This document shows positions 1 to 13,900 of a stretch of DNA of 64,000 nt, piece by piece. This DNA comes from Taxawa tesnikishii (nom. ined.) (Eukaryota > Ascomycota > Dothideomycetes > Dothideales), in assembly GCA_030247885.1 (NCBI GenBank), contig JAPDRO010000023.1, forward strand, positions 1 through 64,000, in the 5' to 3' direction. Each line of letters begins with the position of its first letter. The first letter of the stretch is position 1. The notes below the pieces were generated by a model. That model was not told the origin of the DNA and ran no database searches. It worked only from the letters and a program-made list of their open reading frames with translations. The position numbers were made by a program, and so were the translations under genes.

Positions 1-71
1 CCCTAACCCTAACCCTAACCCTAACCCTAACCCTAACCCTAACCCTAACCCTAACCCTAACCCTAACCCTA
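1..71. repeat. Left telomere, (CCCTAA)n
   Basis: The window opens with about 11.5 perfect CCCTAA units. At the 5' end of the plus strand this is the C-rich strand of a TTAGGG-type telomere, as in most filamentous fungi. A short degenerate stretch with CCCTAAA units follows to about position 100. The perfect array shows that the assembly reaches the true chromosome end. Confidence 0.97.
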
Positions 72-1719
72 CCCAAAAAACCCTAAACCCTAAACCCTAC
101 TATTACTATTACTATTACTATTACTACTATTACTATTACTACTATTATTTTTATTTTTATTACTTTACTTTCTTTTTACTTTTATTATTTTATTCCTTAC
201 TTTAAATCTTTTAATCCTTTTTTCTTTTATATTATTATTTATCTTATTCTACTCTTAATCTTCTTTTTATCTTTACTTTTTTATCTTTATTCTTTTTATC
301 TTTCTTCTTTTTATCTTTACTCTTTTTATCCCTCCTCTTTTATCTTTACTCTTTTTATCTCTTCTCTTTTATCTTTACTCTTTTATCCCTCCTCTTTTAT
401 TTTTACTCTTTTTATTCCTCCTCTTTTTATCTTTCCTCTTTTTATCTTTACTCTTTTTATCTTTCCTCTTTTTATCTTTCCTCTTTCTATCTTTCCTCTC
501 TTTATTTTACTTATTTTATTTTACTTATTATTATTTATTCTTCCTATATATTTTACTTCCTTTAACTTTCTTTAAATATTTTACTTACTTTAATTCTCCT
601 ATTTATATTCTTTCTTTTCCCTTTCCTTAACTACTTTTCTTTTAATCTTATCTTTATACTTATCTTTACTTTAATCTTCTTTAAATTTCCTTTTATTTCT
701 CTTTTCTTACTTTAATTCCTTCCTTTCCTTTTCTTCTTACTTTAACTTTTCTTCTTACCTTAACTTTTCTTTTACTTTAACTTCTCTTTTACTCTTACCT
801 TTCTTTTTACTCCTTACTTATATTCTTATTCTTCCTTTTACTTTATTTCTTATCTTTCCTTATATTTCTCTTTATACTTATTTTTAAACTTATATAAAAC
901 CTTTCCTTTAATATTTTCTTCTTTTCTTTTTTCTTATTTACCTCTTTTTTCCTTAACTCTTTAATTGTTTTCTCTTTTCTTACCTTCCTTTTTATTTTTA
1001 CTTTATACCTTCTCTTTAACTTTAACTTTATACCTTTACCTTACGTTCTTCTCGCTATTACTAGTATCTTAACTTTACTTCTTACCTTTTTATTCTTTTC
1101 CTTCCTTTTCTCTTCTTTCTTTCCTTTTCTCTCTCTTTATATTACTAACCTTCTCGCCTCGCTACGCTAACTTTACTTTTCTTACTTTTACTTTAAATAC
1201 TTCCTATTATTACTAAGATACTATCGCTACCTTCTACCTAATTATTTAATTTTATACTTTCTACTTTATTACTAACTCTATCGCTCTATCTTGCCGCTCT
1301 ATTTTATCTATTTACTTTACCTTATATATTACCCTCCTTACTTACTTTATTTCCTTCTTAACTTTTCTTATTACTTTACCTTTCTTATTATCTTATTAAA
1401 CTCTATTACTAACTCGCTTATATTCTACTCGTTTTAATTTACTCTCGACCCTAAAAACCTTAATACCTTACTTCCTTTACTAAACTTAAATACCTCGCTC
1501 TCTTTTATTTCTTATCTTACTATTTTCTTCTTTTAATACTTTTTACTTTATCTCGGAATATTACTATTAACTCTACTTATACTACTACTACTACTTTCGG
1601 GTAATAATATTCGCCTTTCCTTACTTACTTATAACTCCCTTTCTTCTTTTCTTAAAACTTACTATATAACCTTTATAGTACTTTATAATCGAAATATACT
1701 ATATACCTTTTATATACTA
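72..1719. repeat. Polypyrimidine, G-poor subtelomeric low-complexity DNA
   Basis: The plus strand is almost only T, C and A, with G nearly absent over the first kilobase. It begins with TATTAC-like triplet repeats (about 103-150), then TTTTATCTTT-type repeats, including a clear 15-bp tandem array at 421-495. CpA and TpG are nearly missing, as expected after RIP. No coding region is supported here. The purine-rich minus strand could include the far 3' end of the helicase relic that begins at about 1720. Confidence 0.8.
421..495. repeat. 15-bp tandem array (CTCTTTTTATCTTTM)
   Basis: Five head-to-tail units of exactly 15 bases occur at 421, 436, 451, 466 and 481, differing only at the last base or one internal base. 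Less regular versions of the same unit extend upstream to about 250. Confidence 0.85.
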
Positions 1720-4700
1720 TATTCCTTCTTACTTTCTTGCCTTTTATCTTTGCCTCTTTACTTCCTACTTCCTTATATTCTTTTAAACTATACCCTTCTA
1801 CTACCTTACCTTCTTTTATATATACTAAGTACTTATTCTTTTAATACTATAAACGTTACTTTAACTTTCGCTATTACTTTACTTCTTTTTGTATCTTCTT
1901 TATTAATTACTACTATAACTCTCTCGCTACTTACTACTACTATTAGTATATTTATACGTCTTTTTATATAACTTATACTTCCTTAATTCCCTTACTTCCC
2001 TTACTTTAACTCTTACCCTTTTACCTTTTCTTCTTCTTTCTTCTTTCCTTCCTCTTTTCCTCTTCTTTCCTATTTAGTTTATATACGTTATATTTTTCCT
2101 TTCTTTCTTTATACTTCCTCCTTACTATTACCTACTTATTTACTATTACTTTCCTATTTATATATTCGTCTAATATTACTCTCTAATATATCCTCTTATT
2201 TTTACTCTTTTGTTTTATATATACTTTTTATTAACTTCCTTCTTACTTATTCTTTCGCTTCTTCTTTAGCCTTTCTTACTTTATTATCTTTACTATTCCT
2301 ACTAACTATTACTATTACTTTACTCTTTTACTTATCTTAGCTCGCCCTTTTACTTTCTTATATATACTCCTCAAAATCTCGTAGCTTATTTACGTATATT
2401 ACTACTTTAATATCCGAAATATTTATCCTTAACTCTAACGCGCTCGTCGCTATTATTACTTACTATTTACTCGATATAAAATCCTCGAATTTCTCCCTCT
2501 TTATATTCGCCTTATTATAATACGTATTTACGCCTAACTCGTTTACTAACCTCTTTACCTTATTAATTGTATTATAATATATAATTACCTTACTCGACTA
2601 GTACTACTAGTATTTCCTCCTTATAAATTCTACTATAAACTCCTCGCGCTTTTGCCGCGCCTTTCCTTTTACTTTTACTACTTTATACCTAATCTTTTTC
2701 CTCGTCGTCTTCGCCTTAAATATCCCTACTTCCCCTCTACTTTAATGTATCTTCCTTTATAACTTCGTTTCCTTTAATAGTAGTAACGTTATTATTAATA
2801 ATACTATCTATACCTCTATATTTACTAACTTACCTATCTAGCTTATATACTTACGGAAACCTAAATCGTCGTTTAAAATAACGTAATACTCGTCGATTAC
2901 GATCTTATTTAACTTCCTCTTTACTTAGTTTATATATATATTAAATCCTTTACTAACTACTAACTCTAGTATTATAAATACTATCGCTACGTCGTTTACT
3001 TACTAGTACGCCTCCTACTCTATATATATAATACTTACTTACTTATAACGCTATATTATATTTTACTATAATACTACTAATAGTACTACTACGACTATTA
3101 ACTTACTTGGTACGTATATTATTAGTAATATAAATAATACGTTCTTACCTTCTCTCGTCGCTATAACTACTATTACCTTAGGCTCGCTTCTTATAATTAC
3201 TTCTATTACTAGCTTCTACGTACCTTTAAACTCTACCTCTAGTCCTATTATTTCCTTTAACTATACCTTCGCGTCCGTAATATATAATAACTTTTATTTA
3301 GCTACGCGCGCTTATTTAGCTTAGTCTTTCTATACTATTACTAGCCCTCTTATCTTACGTTTTTGTCCCGTCTTTTCTTCGTATTACTACTCTTTCTCCT
3401 CCTCTTTACTACTAATACGAACCCTAAAAACGCGTACTATATAGTACTAGACTACTTAAACTACTTCCTCTTTTCTACTACGCTACTATTTATTTCGTTT
3501 AATAACTTAGCGTATATTATACTCGCTATATACGACGTATATCTTACTTACTTATTTATAATTGACCTTAACTTATCCCCGATATTATTCTCGTTTTAAT
3601 TACTATCCTTATTATCCTCGTCTCGCTTAAATAATACTACTTCTTATATAAACTTCCTACTAATTTTAATAGTTAACTCGTAATATAACTAAATAGTTAA
3701 CTTTTACTTTAACTCTTTTACGCTTTCTTACTTAATTACTTACTATATTCTCGCCGACGTTTACTTCCTACTATATAGGCTTATATCTTTATACTATAAA
3801 TAACTAGAAATACTTTATTATCCTTCCTAGTCTAGTTAAAACCGCTTTTTTAACGCTATCTAAAATAGTAATACTAACTATAAATACTTTACTAATACTT
3901 CCCTTACTTCCTTAAGTAAATACTTATAAATAATCTTAACGTCCTTACTTATAGAGTACTCTTTATAGTACCTTATTACGAATACTACTAACTTGTTCTT
4001 TACGAATACGTTTTTATACTTTCTCTTAGTTATATTACTATACCTAACGCTTAATAACTTCGGCGCCCTTACTAATTAACTACTCGTAACGTATATTAAT
4101 ACTAATAACTTTACTTTAAACTCTACTACGTTAACTATATACTCGTCTACTTCTACCCTATTAACTTTCGACGTTCTTAGCTTAATAAACTTCTTTCTTA
4201 CTCAAATATTACCTTGGACTTTATCGAATAACTACGTCTAGCTATTTACTTTTAAATAGTTTCTTTTATCTTACAAAAACTCTATTTATACGCGCTATTA
4301 CTAGTATCGTCGCGTAACGTCTACTACGGGATCTTTAGCGCCTAGAATCCGTATAATAACTCGTCCTTTAACTAATACTTTGTATTTACTACTATTTTAT
4401 ATATAAATCTACGGAACGTATTTATACTAAACTATAACGCCTTATATTATATTATATTACTCTTTACTTAATCTACGCTTCTACTTACTATAATATTATA
4501 ATATATCTTTAACTCGTACGTCCTTAAGTTTAATATTTACTATATTAGCGAACTCGTCTTATATACTATAAAATAGTCTATTATTTTCTTAACTACTATA
4601 ATTACTCCTTTCCTCCCTTCTAGCTACGCTATATTACTAGTAATAGTCTCGTAACTACTATTACTACTATTATCCTCTTCGTTACTATTTACTTCCTTCG

Positions 4701-6050
4701 CTTATCTATCTTTTATTTCCTTTAGTTCCTTATCTTAAAACGCCTTTTATACGACTATAAACTATAAAATCTTAATTAACTTAAATAAAATTAGTAAGTA
4801 ACTATTCGTCCCCTTTATCTTCCTTCTTTAACGCTTAAAACGACTATAGTATAAACTATTACGTACTTGTAATCTTTCGATATATTACTCTAGTTTAATA
4901 ATATAATATAAAACTCTAAATACGCTTCTTTTACTTTTAATAACTTCCCTTATTTTTCCGTATTCGCCCTTTCGGCTTACTCTTCCCTTTTACTTACTTT
5001 CGACTCTTCTTTATCGTTTAGTACTACTCGTCTACTACGCCTTTACCTTACTATAATACTCCTTAACTATAATTGCGTTAGTTATAATTATATTACTTCT
5101 TTCTTAGCTTACCTTTATAATGCCCTCTAAGCCTTTTATTACTTCTTATTAAAATAGTACTTTAGACTATCTTATTCGTACTTCTTATATATAGTCCGCG
5201 CGAAAAATATTAATAGTTACTTTTATAGCTACGTATATACCGATATTCTCTTCGCATCCTAGTACGCTATTAATAGTATATACTTCGTCTACTTATCTTT
5301 TATCTAAATCGCCTCGATACGCATAAAATACTCGGCTTTTTATATAATTATTTACTACGCGGACTAGGCTAATCTTCTTATTATTATCTAAATTACTACT
5401 TTTACTAGCTTCTTTATTTCGTCTAGCTTATTTACGCTTCCTATTAACTACGTATAGTCGAACCCTACTAAATACGTAATCTATTTCGTCCTTTTTAACT
5501 ACTAGTTTACTTTATTTATCTCTCCTTCGTTAATTCTTACCTTTATTTTTACCTTAATACTATCTACGTTTTCTATTACGCTCGCTATAAACTTAGACTA
5601 TATTAACTTACTATCCGGAATATTTTATACTTTACCGCCGTTTTACCCTCTATAGCTACGCTCCCTTACCTCGAAAAACGCTAAATAAGCTTAGTAAATA
5701 AAAATCCTTTAGTACTTAACTATCTTCTATAGTCGTACTATTTTATCCTTAGCTTTTATTTACTTTACGTTTATTAGGCGTCCCTCTCGCTTAAACTATA
5801 TTTAACTATAGACTATATAGTAATACTTAATAATATTATCGTCTATCTACTAAATATACTAATAATTTAGTAGGTCGATTTAATACTATTAGCTATCTTC
5901 GAATATTAGTAACTATAGGATTTTATCTTACGCTACGTTTAGTACTCTAAACTTATTTAGACTAGCTTATAACCCTTCGAATTAAGTACTAGCCTCTTGC
6001 AAAATATCCTTCGCTTCTTTATAACTTATTTTATACTATTTACCTTTAAA
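1720..6050 (-). pseudogene. RIP-inactivated telomere-linked RecQ helicase
   Basis: Reading the minus strand through TAG/TAA codons that look like mutated CAG, CAA or TGG gives an essentially continuous protein frame. It carries a superfamily-2 RecQ core in the right order. Motif I is at 3141-3161, seen as ATREGKN and consistent with an ancestral ATGEGKS. A VVVVPLVAL-like motif follows. Motif II is at 2883-2894, seen as IVIDEYYVIL with Cys-His of DECH mutated to Tyr-Tyr. A TAT-like motif III lies near 2785. Motif V has the form VIIATSALELRIN, and motif VI (2340-2360) QES-RAG. Changes are C-to-T or G-to-A, mostly at CpA/TpG, as RIP predicts. Genes of this family sit next to telomeres in many fungi. 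The protein would run toward the telomere. A Lys/Glu-rich tail follows motif VI down to about 1720, and coding-like sequence extends upstream to at least 5950. Both ends are approximate. It cannot be functional. Confidence 0.87.
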
Positions 6051-6889
6051 ATAGGCGACGATCTTACGTAGCTAAACTTTATACTTATACGCCTAATAAA
6101 CTAATACTTTATACTCTAGTAAATACTTGACATATTACGTAATGTCTATTACTTTAATAATATTAAATACTTTGTTAAACTTATTATAACGCTCGTAATA
6201 TAATAGTAAACGAGTTATAAAAACGTAGAATAAGTAACGATAGTAAATAGAATATAAAAATAGTTTATAAGTTTTATATTCGCGTTCTATACGAGTATCT
6301 ATATATTTCCTTAACTTAATATAAGTACGCGACTCTTATATACGACGCGATTTCTCTAGCGTTAATATAGATTCGCGTTCTTTGCGTAGTTAATTAATAA
6401 TTTAACGTTATTTACTTTACCTTTTATACTAGCTTAGTAGTCGCACGGTCGTATAGTTACTTTATATAAATATTAAACCCTCTAAACCGTAACCTTAACG
6501 TAACTCTAAGTACCCTTTAACGTATAATTTCGACCTTAAAATTGCGACTAGAGCTACGGCGTATATATACGATAAATATATCTAAATTTAGGATAGATCT
6601 AATACGGGAATAAAACGCGGATATATACTTATTTAAAAACGAGTTTTTACTTTTAATAACTTAAAATACTACGGCGACGCCGACCCTACGTATTTTATAG
6701 TACTAATAAGAAAACGAGTTTCTACTTATATCCTCGTTAAGTATCTTAGTTAGAATATACTCCTACTTAGTCTTATACTACTTATATTACTAGTAATATC
6801 GCTATTATCTTAATCTTTAAGTAATAAATAATCGCTACTATTACTAGTATTCTTTACTAGTATATTATTAAAGTTAGTCTAGAGACTTA

Positions 6890-8225: not shown

Positions 8226-9109
8226 ATATAGTAAAGGTCTTATTAAAGTTATATATATCTTTATTTAGGATATTATACTTTTCCTTTATCTTTTAATTAA
8301 CTTAAACTAAAGTATTATAACGCGTACGTCTTTATTTAAGGCTTACTAATAATTATATAAATAACTATATTAAAGCTTAACTTCCTTAGTACGCGTCTTA
8401 AACCTATTTACTTAGTACTTACTAATAGGTCCTTTATTATACGTAGTAAGTAAATTATTAGCTATTTCTTTTACTATAGTTCTTATAGTACTTATCTTTC
8501 GTAAGTTTAACTTAAGTATATATATTACTATTACTTTTTCCTTTATTTTCTTTAGCTTCTTTAAGTTAAGCTTATAGTCGTATTATATAAGCTTTTTATT
8601 ACGTTATTATCTTAGCGTTATTCGAGGGACGTTATATACTTTAAACGCGTATTTTATACTATTAAAAGGAGTTACTTAAGTAGCCTTAATAGTAAAGTAT
8701 AATATACCTTTATTATAAGTAAATTACGTATTACGTTATAATAGTATTATTATAATAGTTTATAATAGTTACGATATTAGTAAGGAGTAGCTACTTAGTA
8801 GAAAGTAGCTACTTAGTAATAGAATACGTTATTTTATATATATTAACTTTTTTACTTTACTTATATTAGTAGTATAAATAGCTAAGGAAATTTAACGCGA
8901 ATACGTATAATTATTAAGAACTTTATAACTTTTTCTTTAACTAATTAATAAAAAGTAACTTAACTACTTTAAAACTTATTATCTTAAGATAACGTATTTT
9001 ATAAGTAAGTTAATTACTTAAGTAAGTTAGTTACCTTACGAAAGTAAAACGCCTACGTAGTAACATTACGTAATACCTTAATAATATAACGTATAATATA
9101 CTTATATTA

Positions 9110-9192
9110 ACGTGTTTCACAAGTGAGTCGGCCACCCAAGTGAGTCGGCCACCTCACGAAACTAGAACGCTTGCGCAGCAACATTGCGCAAC
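9110..9192 (+). repeat. Left terminal inverted repeat of the transposon
   Basis: This matches the reverse complement of 10874-10956 at about 79 of 83 positions. It contains a direct 16-base repeat, AAGTGAGTCGGCCACC, at 9121-9136 and 9138-9153, a likely pair of transposase-binding sites. Confidence 0.92.
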
Positions 9193-9231
9193 ACTACAAC
9201 ACTTTACAGCAGTCTATAGAACAGTATATAA

Positions 9232-10875
9232 TTATTCAGAAACGTCGCTATCTTCTGCATCCTCTATTTCTACTTTACAGGTGCGGGAGTTATGCCCAGT
9301 CTCGCCGCAACGGCCGCAACGCCGCTCTACGCGCACCCTCTTCGCAGCCTTCTCGCCGTCATTACCACTGCTACCCTCCTTGGCAGCGACCAGATCAGCT
9401 ACCTCACCTACTGTTAGAGTCTCCTCTGCCCGTACGTATTGCCTTTTGCGGCTCTTGCGCTTTGTGGCCGCCTCAATTGCGTCTCGCAGACGCGCTGTTT
9501 CTTCGCGCATTAACACCATCTCATGCGCTATCTGCTGAGCGCCCTTGGTCAGCTGCCTAACCTGCTCATCCAAAGAGCTTGCTGGAGACCCCTGATGTTT
9601 TTGCATGCGATTTCGAATTAGCGTTGACTGCGCCTCTATTTCGCTGGCGTTGCGCGGTGTTTTCGCCTCCCATTCGACTGTACCTGGTGCAGGCGGCGTT
9701 GGCGTACGCAGCCTTACATCCAGCTTCGATAACACAGCCTCTGGGTTGTATGGGACTAGCCCAGCGCCTCGAAACCCTGCGCAGACATTCTCCTGTGTGA
9801 ACGCCTTCTTAAAAGCTGCTTTAAAGGCAGTTAGGAAGGTTTCTTTCGTGATATAGTAAACGCGACTGCGTGCCAAGGCTGAGATCTCGTCGCCATACAG
9901 GCGCTTTAGCAGCGAGTAGCAGACGACGTCAAGTGGCTGCAGTAGGTGCGAGGAGTGTGGAGGCATACAGAGAGCTATAATGTTGTTCTCCTTACAGTAA
10001 TCCTGGAATTCGACCGAGCAGTGGCTCTCGTGGCCGTCAATAATAAGCAGCCTATATGCCCCAACAGTATAAGCCTTCGTATGCGCATCGAAGTGCTTAA
10101 GCCACGCGAGCGCGAGCTTGTTGTTAGTCCAGCCAGTAGAGGAGACCTCAACAATCCAGTCACGAGGTAGATCGTTGAACCAGGTTGAGATAAGGACCTT
10201 GCCTGCGAAGATGATGAAGGGTGGGATAACGCGCCCCGTAGCCCCGACGCCTTGTACCAAGGTAACCCACTCGCGATCGCCAGGCTGTAGTTTCTTCTGT
10301 TTACCAGGTTTCTCTGAGCCTGTAACAACTAGCTGAGACGATATCTTGCCCATTAGAAAGCCAGATTCATCAAAGTTGTAGGTGTCCTCATCTGAGATAC
10401 TATACTTCGCCTTCATTGACTGAACAAGCGCGAACCAGGGCTGGATAACCGCCGGATCCTCGCAGGCAGCTCGCTGGCGGTCGTACGGACGGCTCCATCG
10501 CGTTCGTAGCTCAGGCGTACGCTTAATCAAGTTGTCAACCCAGTTCTTGCCAACAGGCTTCCCATCACGCTCTCCTAGCAGTTTATCCGCCATATCTCGT
10601 ACGTTTCCCTTCGAGGGCGGTACGCCACGTAGACTCTCGTCTAGCACACGCTGTACAACCACCTCCTCTTCTAGTTTTGTAAGGCGCTTTGATTTCGGCT
10701 CGTGGTCGCGTCGAGAGCGCCGTCCAGCGCGTCGGTCTTGTAGCGTTGATCGGGGCACAGTATATACTGCTGCAGCGCGTCTCTCGCTTTGAATTTGCTT
10801 GGTTGTAATATCAGAGATAGCAAGGTATATATCTCCTTCAGTGTAGGTGTATTGCACGTTGCGTTGTTGAGGCAT
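9232..10875 (-). CDS. Pogo/Fot1-like DDE transposase with C-terminal zinc knuckle
   Basis: This is an uninterrupted, intronless ORF of 547 codons from the first ATG at 10875, just inside the right inverted repeat. The longer frame upstream has no ATG. From the N-terminus it has a psq-like helix-turn-helix, a CENP-B/Tc5-like DNA-binding part with GKNWVDNLIKR, and then a DDE_1 catalytic core. The catalytic acids are recognisable in YNFDESGF (first Asp), IIDGHESH (second Asp) and HLLQPLDV (third Asp, giving a DDD triad). A basic, coiled-coil-like stretch follows. The C-terminus carries a CX2CX4HX4C zinc knuckle (CGRCGETGHNSRTC) and an acidic tail. It should cut and paste the element at TA sites. 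All catalytic motifs are present, so activity is plausible. Confidence 0.95.
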   Translation of the reverse strand: MPQQRNVQYTYTEGDIYLAISDITTKQIQSERRAAAVYTVPRSTLQDRRAGRRSRRDHEPKSKRLTKLEEEVVVQRVLDESLRGVPPSKGNVRDMADKLLGERDGKPVGKNWVDNLIKRTPELRTRWSRPYDRQRAACEDPAVIQPWFALVQSMKAKYSISDEDTYNFDESGFLMGKISSQLVVTGSEKPGKQKKLQPGDREWVTLVQGVGATGRVIPPFIIFAGKVLISTWFNDLPRDWIVEVSSTGWTNNKLALAWLKHFDAHTKAYTVGAYRLLIIDGHESHCSVEFQDYCKENNIIALCMPPHSSHLLQPLDVVCYSLLKRLYGDEISALARSRVYYITKETFLTAFKAAFKKAFTQENVCAGFRGAGLVPYNPEAVLSKLDVRLRTPTPPAPGTVEWEAKTPRNASEIEAQSTLIRNRMQKHQGSPASSLDEQVRQLTKGAQQIAHEMVLMREETARLRDAIEAATKRKSRKRQYVRAEETLTVGEVADLVAAKEGSSGNDGEKAAKRVRVERRCGRCGETGHNSRTCKVEIEDAEDSDVSE

Positions 10876-10956
10876 TGCGCAATGTTGCTGCGCAGGTGTT
10901 CTAGTTTCGCGAGGTGGCCGACTCACTTGGGTGGCCGACTTACTTGTGAAACACGT
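10874..10956 (-). repeat. Right terminal inverted repeat of the transposon
   Basis: This is the partner of the left repeat. One copy of the internal direct repeat reads AAGTAAGTCGGCCACC, a G-to-A difference. It covers the transcription start side of the transposase, whose ATG begins at 10875. Confidence 0.92.
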
Positions 10957-13900
10957 TAAAGGAAATATATACTTTATTATTTCTAATATTATATCTAAGT
11001 AAATTTAAAGTAAGAGACGTACTATAATAATATATATTATATAGTTAAACTAAGTACTTAATAATAACTATATATATAATAGAACTAATTATAACTTATT
11101 AATTTATTTTTCTATTTACTATAGTAACTAAGAAATAAAGAAATTCCCTACTTAGTTTAGTAAGTTATATAATTATCTATTTAAACTAAGTAGTTACTAT
11201 CTTATAATATTCTTCCTTAACTAAATTAGTCCTTTTTAAATAGTTTAAGTTAACTAATAAACCTCTAGAAATGCTAGCCTTAAAGAGGCTTTATAAAGTT
11301 ATTAGTAATTATTTCTTAAGTACTAATAAACTTAACGCTAATCCTCTTCCTCTTATATAAATCTCTAACGTAATAATAGAGTATATAAATATACTTTAAT
11401 CTATTATAAGTATACGTATCTTAAATAAGGGAGAAAGTAGCTTAGTTATTTCCTTTAAGTATAATAAGTAATTTAATTATAAACTTTAGTTCCTTTTAAA
11501 CTATTAACTTAAAGGAATTACTACTAATAAGGTACTAATAGCTTATATTTCTTAAGAGTAATATAAGCTATTATAACTACTTTAAGTAAGTATATATTAC
11601 TATATACTTAGTATTTATAATAGAAGTTATTATTAACTTTTACTTCTTATTTATCTAACTAATTAGCCCTCCTCTAAGTATAAATATATTACTAAAGATA
11701 GAGATCTTTTCTTACTTATCTATTATATAGTTAGAGTTAGAAAAGCTAGTAAGATATTAGTCTTAATATACGCCTAAAATAATTACTAACTTAGCGCTTA
11801 ATCTTAAGTACCTTAGGATTTCTTTAATTACCTTAGTATAAAACTCTACTAGATTTATAAGGTATTAGCTTAGTCTACTTAAAGTAAAGGTAATATTAGA
11901 CCTTATTAAAATACTAAGGTAAACTATCTTTCTAATTAAATACTAGTATTCTCTTTAGTTTACTCTTATATCTTAAAGTCTAGCTAGTCTTAGTATATTA
12001 TAACTATTTAATAGTACCTTTATTAGATAAGCTTTATTTTTCTCTATATTATATTTAGTAAGAACGTCTTTAATATAGTAAGACTAGTTTATTTTAATTA
12101 TTTTAGCTTTCTTATTTCTTATAATTTTTACTTTAAAAATAAAGTTAATTTCTCTTAGGTCCTTAATTTTAAAGATAAAAGTAAAAGCCTCTTTAAACTA
12201 TAAGATATTATTAATGTCCTTATATACTACTTAAATATTATCTACGTAAATAAAAAGAAGTATTTTCCTCTTTAAGTAAATAAAAAGATAAGAGTCTACC
12301 TTACTTTAAATAAAGCTTAGCTTTTAAAGTTATAATATATAGTTTTAGTTTTAGTCCCTCGTTACTTACTTAAGACTATATAAACTCTTAAGAACCTTAA
12401 GTACTTAGCTAGGAGTAAGATTAATACTAAGTAAAAGTACTATATAAATTTCCTTTTTAAGAATAACTTAATAAAGATATTATTAACGTCTACTTAATAG
12501 CACTTTAAATCCTCGATTATAATAATAGTTAAAAAGACTCTTAGAGTATTATACTTTAAAGTAAAAGCAAAAGTATATTTAAAATTAATATTATACTTCT
12601 AGGAGAATCCTTTTATAACTAGCCTTACTTTTAGCTTATTAAGGAATTTATTTAAGTTAAACTTAGTATCGAAAACCTATTTACTTAATATAATATTATG
12701 CCCCTTTAGTAAAGTAGCTATTTTAAATATTATATTTACTTATAAAATATTTAGTTCCTTCTTAATAACTTCTTTTTAAAGTTCTTTTTAAATAGAGTTA
12801 TAAATAACTTTTAAATAAGTTCGCGAAATTAGGATATTTATCTTACCTTTTACTATTAAAGCGAACTCTTCTTCTACTTAATTAACTTTAAAAAGAGTAA
12901 TAACTTAGCTTTATTTTTCTTTTATAAATAGGGCTATAAGAGCCTTTAAGATCTTAGTTAACTTATAATTAGTTTTTAACTTATCTTCGTTAAGATCTTC
13001 TCTTATTCTTTTAAGTATTAAGATCTTAACGTAAGAAAAGACTTTCTTTAATAAAGTTAAAGTAAGAACCTTAACGTAGAAAACTATATTTCTTAGTTAA
13101 GTTAAAGTAATTAACTCTTACTTCTCTTACTATAGTTCCTCTTATAAAGACTCTTCTTACTAAGTTATATAAGGTTCTTTTTAATTCTTAGTCTTAGAAA
13201 GTTCCTCCTATTATAATATATCCTTATATATACTTAGTATAAGCTTTATTAGCTACTTTCTTAGTCTATTAACTAGTCTCCTTTAGGGTACTATATTAGT
13301 AGTAAATTTAATAAGTATATTAAGCTTAATATTTCCTTCCTTTTTATCTTTAAAGAACTTAATTACTCTACTTATAATTATCTTTCTTATATTAAGTACT
13401 TAAATCTTTTATTACTTAGTAGTACCTTTAATATAACTTATAGATACTTTAACTTTACTTTTATTTATAAGCTTATCTTATCTTAAGAATAAAGGTAAAA
13501 ATTTCGAGTTTATATAAGTAATAACTTTATAACTTTAGACTTTAATATAGTCGATTAATAAAGTAACTCTAGTAAAAGCTTCCTTAAGACTAAACTACTT
13601 ACTATTAATAACTAGTTTGTTAGATATAAGGTTTTTAAAGTGAATATTAGTTTATATTACCTTAAACTAAAACTTATTTAGTAGTCTTATATCCTTAAGT
13701 ATTACTCTTATATTAAACTCTATAGTCTAATTACTTCTTTTAATAACTCAATTTTATAAAGATATCTAAGTAATAGTAAATTAAAGTTAAATTCCCTCTT
13801 ATTTCTTTTATTCTTAAAAGACTTCCTTTAGCTTAGGAATATTATTACTTTTAATAGCCTTAAGCTTAGCTTTACTTTAGAATTTTACCTTTTTCTTTTA

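Follow-up and report, generated by a model that had tools for sequence, protein, structure and literature searches.

The window analysed here is the first 64,000 bp of contig JAPDRO010000023.1 from the dothideomycete Taxawa tesnikishii (nom. ined.; assembly GCA_030247885.1). It forms the left end of the contig called C16 below, and the whole analysis covers this one genome of 29.37 Mb in 34 contigs. Positions 1-6753 of the window were confirmed to be a telomere-linked helicase (TLH) block killed by repeat-induced point mutation (RIP). The TLH blocks of this genome are probably mobile elements that live as chromosome termini, with a defined inner terminus that is joined to chromosomal DNA and a telomere of their own that is brought along. 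This reading is carried by two families. In the family that is not RIP-mutated, TLH-A, the terminus is fixed and strictly terminal in the genome, the flanks are unrelated and the target is biased. In the dead family of the window, TLH-B, most long copies were nearly identical before RIP, and TLH-A lies on truncated TLH-B. The element would also encode its own joining enzyme, and a candidate strand chemistry is proposed below.

The inner junctions were read for all 51 TLH-A blocks. Every block finishes at the identical base, ...CGTGGCCATTCGTTTGACTTCTACGAGTAG, and is followed by one of 51 different sequences. Searching the genome for the terminal 23-mer gave exactly 51 occurrences (reversed control, 0). 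One of these lies 6.2-6.4 kb from the telomere at a scaffold joint in contig C2, and all the others lie at that distance from a contig end. Pairwise identity was 1.000 over the last 25 bases of the element and 0.303 over the next 40. The element ends in NTAG, and the flank base at the 51 edges was G in 20, T in 16, A in 8 and C in 7. According to the substrate index, 47 of the flanks were RIP-mutated and four were not. Eleven pairs of flanks were related; within these pairs, the shared repeat was joined at two different points or in the two opposite orientations. At the inner junction, block and acceptor had no more than 1-3 bases in common across the 51 unrelated flanks, and no telomere repeat tract was found there, either in the junctions read from seven blocks or at any of the 51 edges. 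At a distance of 14 nt from the end there is a hairpin with 9-bp arms (z -2.6 on one strand and -3.4 on the other).

The base lost beside the junction could be read where an uninterrupted copy of the flanking repeat was available, which was the case for 27 junctions. In the best copy this base was G in 19 and A in 8 (background frequency of G 0.099; P 8.5e-14) and in no case C or T, and AG stood at the target in 17. Under a looser alignment rule, the target base was G in 18 and A in 9. At least one copy with G at the target was found for 23 of the 27 junctions, compared with 1-6 at 14 other offsets (2-6 under the looser rule). Because several junctions show both G and A among their copies, the A-type targets can be read as G altered by RIP. 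On the coding strand, the element starts with CTA and the target is mostly CTA or CTT, and the two have 1-3 nt in common.

The TLH-A blocks were further characterized by their coding content. Near the contig ends or at the C2 scaffold joint, 51 Helicase_C domains were found, all with matches free of stops; 40 of them scored 47.9 bits and the rest 29.3-43.6 bits. The OrsD profile gave 51 TLH-A matches as well, one of them partial. The helicase core scored 50.2 bits for DEAD and 43.5 bits for Helicase_C, matched RECQL5 with an E value of 8e-26, and carried the canonical motifs ILPTGAGKS, DECH and QESGRAGRDG. An intact 905-aa frame lies on the minus strand of C6 at 1442-4156. When six blocks were compared, 17 of 6402 base columns were variable, all within the first kilobase, in addition to small indels. 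In a Pfam scan of the two main TLH-A frames, OrsD, DEAD and Helicase_C alone passed the cut-offs, and neither a reverse transcriptase nor a Rep domain was detected. A search for TLH-A relatives in IMG/VR gave pattern matches, none of which was confirmed.

Some further observations were made around this family. At the left end of C6, positions 6260-6275, some 55 bp away from the inner terminus of TLH-A, read CTAACCCTTAGGGTTA, with telomere repeats in both orientations, and this is present in the TLH-A blocks displayed. TLH/OrsD relatives also occur away from the outermost ends, on C2 near 774-783 kb, 851-855 kb, 1140-1153 kb and 8-12 kb; several have open frames, and their M-domain identity to TLH-A reaches 46%. 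The right end of C22 has a telomere without TLH-A directly beside it, and the adjoining sequence looks RIP-mutated. Two contigs contain telomere repeats in facing orientation, C29 at about 702.6-703.4 kb, where an N gap separates them, and C2 at about 865.2-865.7 kb; given the gap in C29, both sites appear to be places where chromosome ends were joined in scaffolding. A telomere fusion was considered for the "palindrome" that two dead blocks form in C29 and was rejected, since this palindrome consists of two telomere ends joined by the N gap, with arms 99.86% identical.

The initial annotation of the window had proposed a RIP-killed, telomere-linked RecQ helicase at positions 1720-6050. This identity was borne out, and the element proved larger, running from the telomere at position 1 to 6753 (Table 1). 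Across the first 9 kb, 1-kb windows had a GC content of 0.24-0.31 with CpA and TpG almost absent, and the RIP indices, which had been expected to be elevated in sliding windows, were so: the composite index was 1.72-2.33, compared with -0.51 ± 0.23 over 16-64 kb. The helicase motifs named in the annotation all lie in order in one minus-strand frame, namely ATREGKN (3161-3141), VIDEYY (2900-2883), VIIATSALELRIN (2459-2421) and ESKRAS (2357-2340), and the gene points toward the telomere as claimed. For translated comparison, in-frame stops were replaced by X. The resulting 354-residue piece scored 27.8 bits against Pfam Helicase_C (cut-off 23.5), and the expected RecQ similarity was found in the PDB with RECQL5 (E 7.2e-8) and WRN (E 3.3e-6). 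A six-frame Helicase_C search of the genome recovered the window copy at an E value of 3.1e-6, with four TAG and two TAA within the match. Compared with the intact TLH of the same genome, the correct frame scored 62.8 bits, whereas the remaining five frames scored at most 20.8 and 100 shuffles (best of six frames) at most 25.4. None of the stops in the dead frame is TGA. The OrsD search gave no match in the RIP-mutated window copy, and the N-terminal half of the gene is without assignment.

Table 1. Features of the dead TLH-B block at the left end of the window.
Feature	Positions	Strand	Basis
Entire dead TLH-B block, from the telomere through the nearly G-free tract and the dead RecQ gene to the inner terminus	1..6753		Shared among copies; sequence sharing stops at 6753
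Telomere repeats CCCTAA, degenerate repeats to about 98	1..69	+	Sequence
Pyrimidine-rich tract, nearly G-free on the + strand	101..1500	+	Base counts
Dead RecQ helicase core, 23 in-frame stops (12 TAG, 11 TAA)	2232..3293	-	Stop-masked read-through, motif positions
Dead M domain, homologous to the TLH-A M domain (match 3566-4141, E 4.9e-8)	3419..4075	-	Sequence comparison; weak BLASTP E 0.001
Short inverted repeat ahead of the terminus, 6-bp arms 6713-6718 and 6733-6738	6713..6738		Sequence
15-nt tail closing the TLH-B element in TAG	6739..6753	+	Edge comparison

Between the telomere and the helicase gene, the plus strand of the window has no G in 500 bases at 101-600, 4 in 500 at 601-1100 and 12 in 400 at 1101-1500. 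A nearly G-free tract lies in the same place at the left ends of C6 and C9 (101-1100), again on the strand that bears CCCTAA. Since it occurs in TLH-A too, which has not undergone RIP, it is not a product of RIP.

A DNA search of the genome with the window block gave at least 53 matches, the block itself and fragments counted, and many of them stop near window position 6750-6757. Long copies were found on C15, C2 (twice), C9 and C6, and the dead unit sits directly at a telomere at the right ends of C15 and C2, near 865 kb of C2 and at the left end of the window. Over 5.20-5.25 kb, comparison of the window copy with the five long copies gave 575-624 transitions and 0-1 transversions for four of them, which indicates that these four were practically identical to it when RIP struck; the fifth, at the right end of C6, differs by 579 transitions and 26 transversions. 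CpA loss, TpA gain, transition-only differences and repetition, the marks of a RIP-mutated repeat, are thus all found in the window, with the transversions of the C6 copy as the exception. Polymorphic C is mostly followed by T or G, because CpA is nearly exhausted. The search for an intact TLH-B member was negative: each of the 17 protein matches that exceed 100 aa and have at least 41% identity, the window included, carries 11-28 in-frame stops.

The annotation had also predicted mutated or protected copies at other chromosome ends. Dead copies indeed occur at several ends and 51 copies are not RIP-mutated, but the latter belong to a different TLH family. The helicases of TLH-A and TLH-B share 22% amino acid identity and there is no DNA match over about 0.9-6.3 kb of the block, so that a single family was ruled out; the M domain of TLH-A nevertheless picks up that of the window (Table 1). 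The escape of TLH-A is probably due to a lack of recent RIP action, because a DDE_1 transposon (Pfam) in this genome has 14 copies at 98-100% identity, counting the one in the window, which keeps an intact 590-aa minus-strand frame at 9108-10958 between RIP-mutated stretches. Special protection of the chromosome tips is another reason that has to be allowed for. The transposon has further copies: one at 94%, one that is split (97%), and 23 whose identity of 71-81% lies where RIP-mutated copies would be expected. The same part of the window holds, at about 8238-8495, a 258-bp RIP-mutated repeat with more than ten further copies at 88-93% identity on several contigs.

Older blocks show edges of the same kind. 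TLH-B ends at 6753 with TTAG before three distinct flanks, and a second dead family, B-prime, ends in GATAG or GATAA in 13 entries, two of which (on C29 and C23) have a related flank. Identity falls from 0.97 before the edge to 0.32 after it in TLH-B and from 0.84 to 0.31 in B-prime, the values before the edge being partly due to construction, since the entries were chosen by a tail pattern allowing three changes. Both edges are also present among the copies found by BLAST. TLH-A sits on top of truncated TLH-B at the right ends of C6 (window-equivalent position 1829), C9 (1217), C34 and C13 and at the left end of C24. TLH-B sits on B-prime at five ends, which are not independent because they all carry the same nested remnant. 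The window probably carries one of at least three waves, namely B-prime (dead), B (dead, in the window) and A (at 51 ends, not RIP-mutated).

Based on these results, we propose that the element has a single defined end on the centromere side, the telomere itself acting as the other. To form a new copy, the defined terminus would be attached to a chromosome at a short site, which reads AG on the C-rich telomere strand and C-T on the coding strand; all DNA distal to the join would be lost, and the element and the telomere it carries would take its place. The element protein, comprising the OrsD region, the M domain and the RecQ helicase, may make or expose the defined end, for example by a nick at C^TA, after which one strand would be peeled off to the telomere and the other filled in by the host. 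The scheme we prefer is strand transfer at C^T, which would be followed by copying out to the telomere. The frames of the TLH gene are the only long TLH-A frames that match any family, which makes TLH the natural candidate for the joining enzyme. Waves would replace one another, and RIP would kill the old ones. In this form, TLH blocks might constitute a new class of DNA element that is one-ended, uses the telomere as its second end, combines an end-defining M-domain enzyme with a RecQ motor, spreads as it amputates and re-caps chromosome arms, and consists of successive families that compete for a limited number of ends and are killed in waves by RIP whenever the fungus passes through a RIP-competent meiosis, a broader proposal in which our confidence is slightly less than even.

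Several observations weigh against the reading of TLH blocks as mobile termini. No nuclease or recombinase domain was found in the M domain, and searches of Pfam, PHROGs, NCBIfam and the PDB gave no relatives. A tyrosine recombinase, as in Crypton or Starship elements, had been expected from its motifs, but no match to one was obtained in these libraries, and a profile comparison was not significant (12.07 against 12.17 for the reversed control). Many TLH-A copies are interrupted: the open frames around the helicase span 241-1012 aa, and a TAA lies inside the M-domain match at the left ends of C5 and C17 and the right end of C14, so that some copies may be frameshifted or the assembly may contain small indel errors. 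The targets at 24 junctions could not be assessed for lack of an uninterrupted repeat copy, and at four of the other 27 (C1 left, C29 right, C31 left and C33 left) no copy has G. The 1-3 shared nucleotides would also fit microhomology end-joining by the host. A hairpin common to all three termini was rejected, because folding beats shuffles in family A only; the inverted repeat of the window folds no better than shuffles (z -0.76). The partly built-in identity at the older edges counts on the same side.

Alternatively, the block might tend to break at its inner terminus, and the 6.3-kb telomere-capped fragment might be attached to broken ends by host microhomology end-joining. The nucleotides shared by terminus and target and the hairpin close to the TLH-A end favor such fragile-end capping. 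Without an enzyme, however, it is hard to see how 51 of 51 blocks would break at exactly the same base, and end-joining often proceeds without a shared base, whereas the target base in the 27 best copies is never C or T; we regard this explanation as unlikely. Ordinary spread from one chromosome end to another through homologous recombination or break-induced replication, as in yeast Y' elements, is disfavored and appears still less probable. It agrees with the near identity of the blocks, which makes exchange among blocks likely within the block, and with the nested B/B-prime remnant common to five ends, but at the join the 51 flanks are unrelated both to the block and to one another beyond the 1-3 bases. 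Homologous exchange does not predict 51 exact edges and random breakage does not predict exactness, which points to an enzyme-made end or a very exact fragile site.

Drosophila HeT-A likewise attaches a fixed end to unrelated broken ends, and similar edges could arise if the blocks, like HeT-A or telomeric Penelope-like elements, spread by a retroelement-like process in which the RNA has a fixed end. This is very improbable here, given that no reverse transcriptase was found in the two TLH-A frames scanned and the junctions lack a telomere repeat tract, the two grounds on which TLH-A was rejected as a telomeric retroelement. Moreover, the TLH gene runs toward the telomere, which places the fixed end on its 5' side. 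An assembly artefact, in which the same telomeric block was put on contig ends during finishing, deserves equally little credence. The telomere-to-telomere N gap of C29 indicates that the assembly was scaffolded, but the copies differ by indels and a few bases, and neither the target base preference nor the same edge in dead families would follow from finishing. The interpretation as mobile chromosome termini was preferred.

Yeast Y' elements are helicase-bearing terminal repeats that spread through shared sequence, which is not seen at the TLH-A junctions. Helitrons have a CTRR 3' end, insert between A and T, and encode an HUH Rep and a Pif1-type helicase. TLH-A differs from them in its TAG end and RecQ-type helicase, and it was rejected as a Helitron because of the NTAG end, the mixed flank bases given above and the absence of a Rep domain from the Pfam scan. 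Helitrons resemble the blocks in having a helicase and, as in family A, a hairpin shortly before one fixed terminus (in part PMC4522978), and Y' elements, mentioned in the same paper, resemble them as helicase-bearing terminal repeats amplified at many ends. MoTeRs (PMC7367193), FoTeRs (PMC12857005) and a telomeric Penelope-like family of Z. tritici (PMC4522978) are also mobile elements at chromosome ends, and FoTeRs often co-occur with TLHs (PMC12857005). In contrast to TLH-A, in which neither was found, they carry a reverse transcriptase and telomere repeats at the junction.

TLHs have been described in fungi since the U. maydis paper of 1998. Those of U. maydis (UTASa/UTASb), C. higginsianum (DHX_G198 repeats), F. 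oxysporum (tlh) and A. bisporus share a RecQ core, telomere adjacency and many near-identical copies, and a RecQ-type core adjacent to telomeres in many near-identical copies was likewise found for the window family and TLH-A. C. higginsianum bears RecQ repeats of full length, all oriented the same way, at each of its 24 subtelomeres (PMC5576322), the OrsD domain has been noted in U. maydis TLHs as well (PMC10532341), and further subtelomeric RecQ/TLH reports concern Z. tritici (PMC4522978), A. bisporus (PMC7473861) and U. maydis (PMC10532341, PMC7593156). The literature searched, which missed several key TLH papers, gave no report of an inner terminus fixed to a single base, followed by unrelated flanks and combined with a preferred target. 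Such an exact terminus together with a target preference is the mark of a transposing element rather than of a host gene shuffled by recombination, and it bears on how TLHs reach so many chromosome ends. If valid elsewhere, it would suggest, in a form open to test, how terminal deletions arise, how arms are re-capped and why subtelomeres turn over fast. The closest parallel to the coexistence of dead and un-mutated copies is X26 of Stagonospora nodorum, a subtelomeric RecQ repeat that is RIP-mutated while other RecQ copies look functional; how function survives RIP in some copies and not in others was called unclear in that paper (PMC3017866). While the coexistence was left unexplained there, in the present genome dead and un-mutated copies coexist because they belong to different families and waves.

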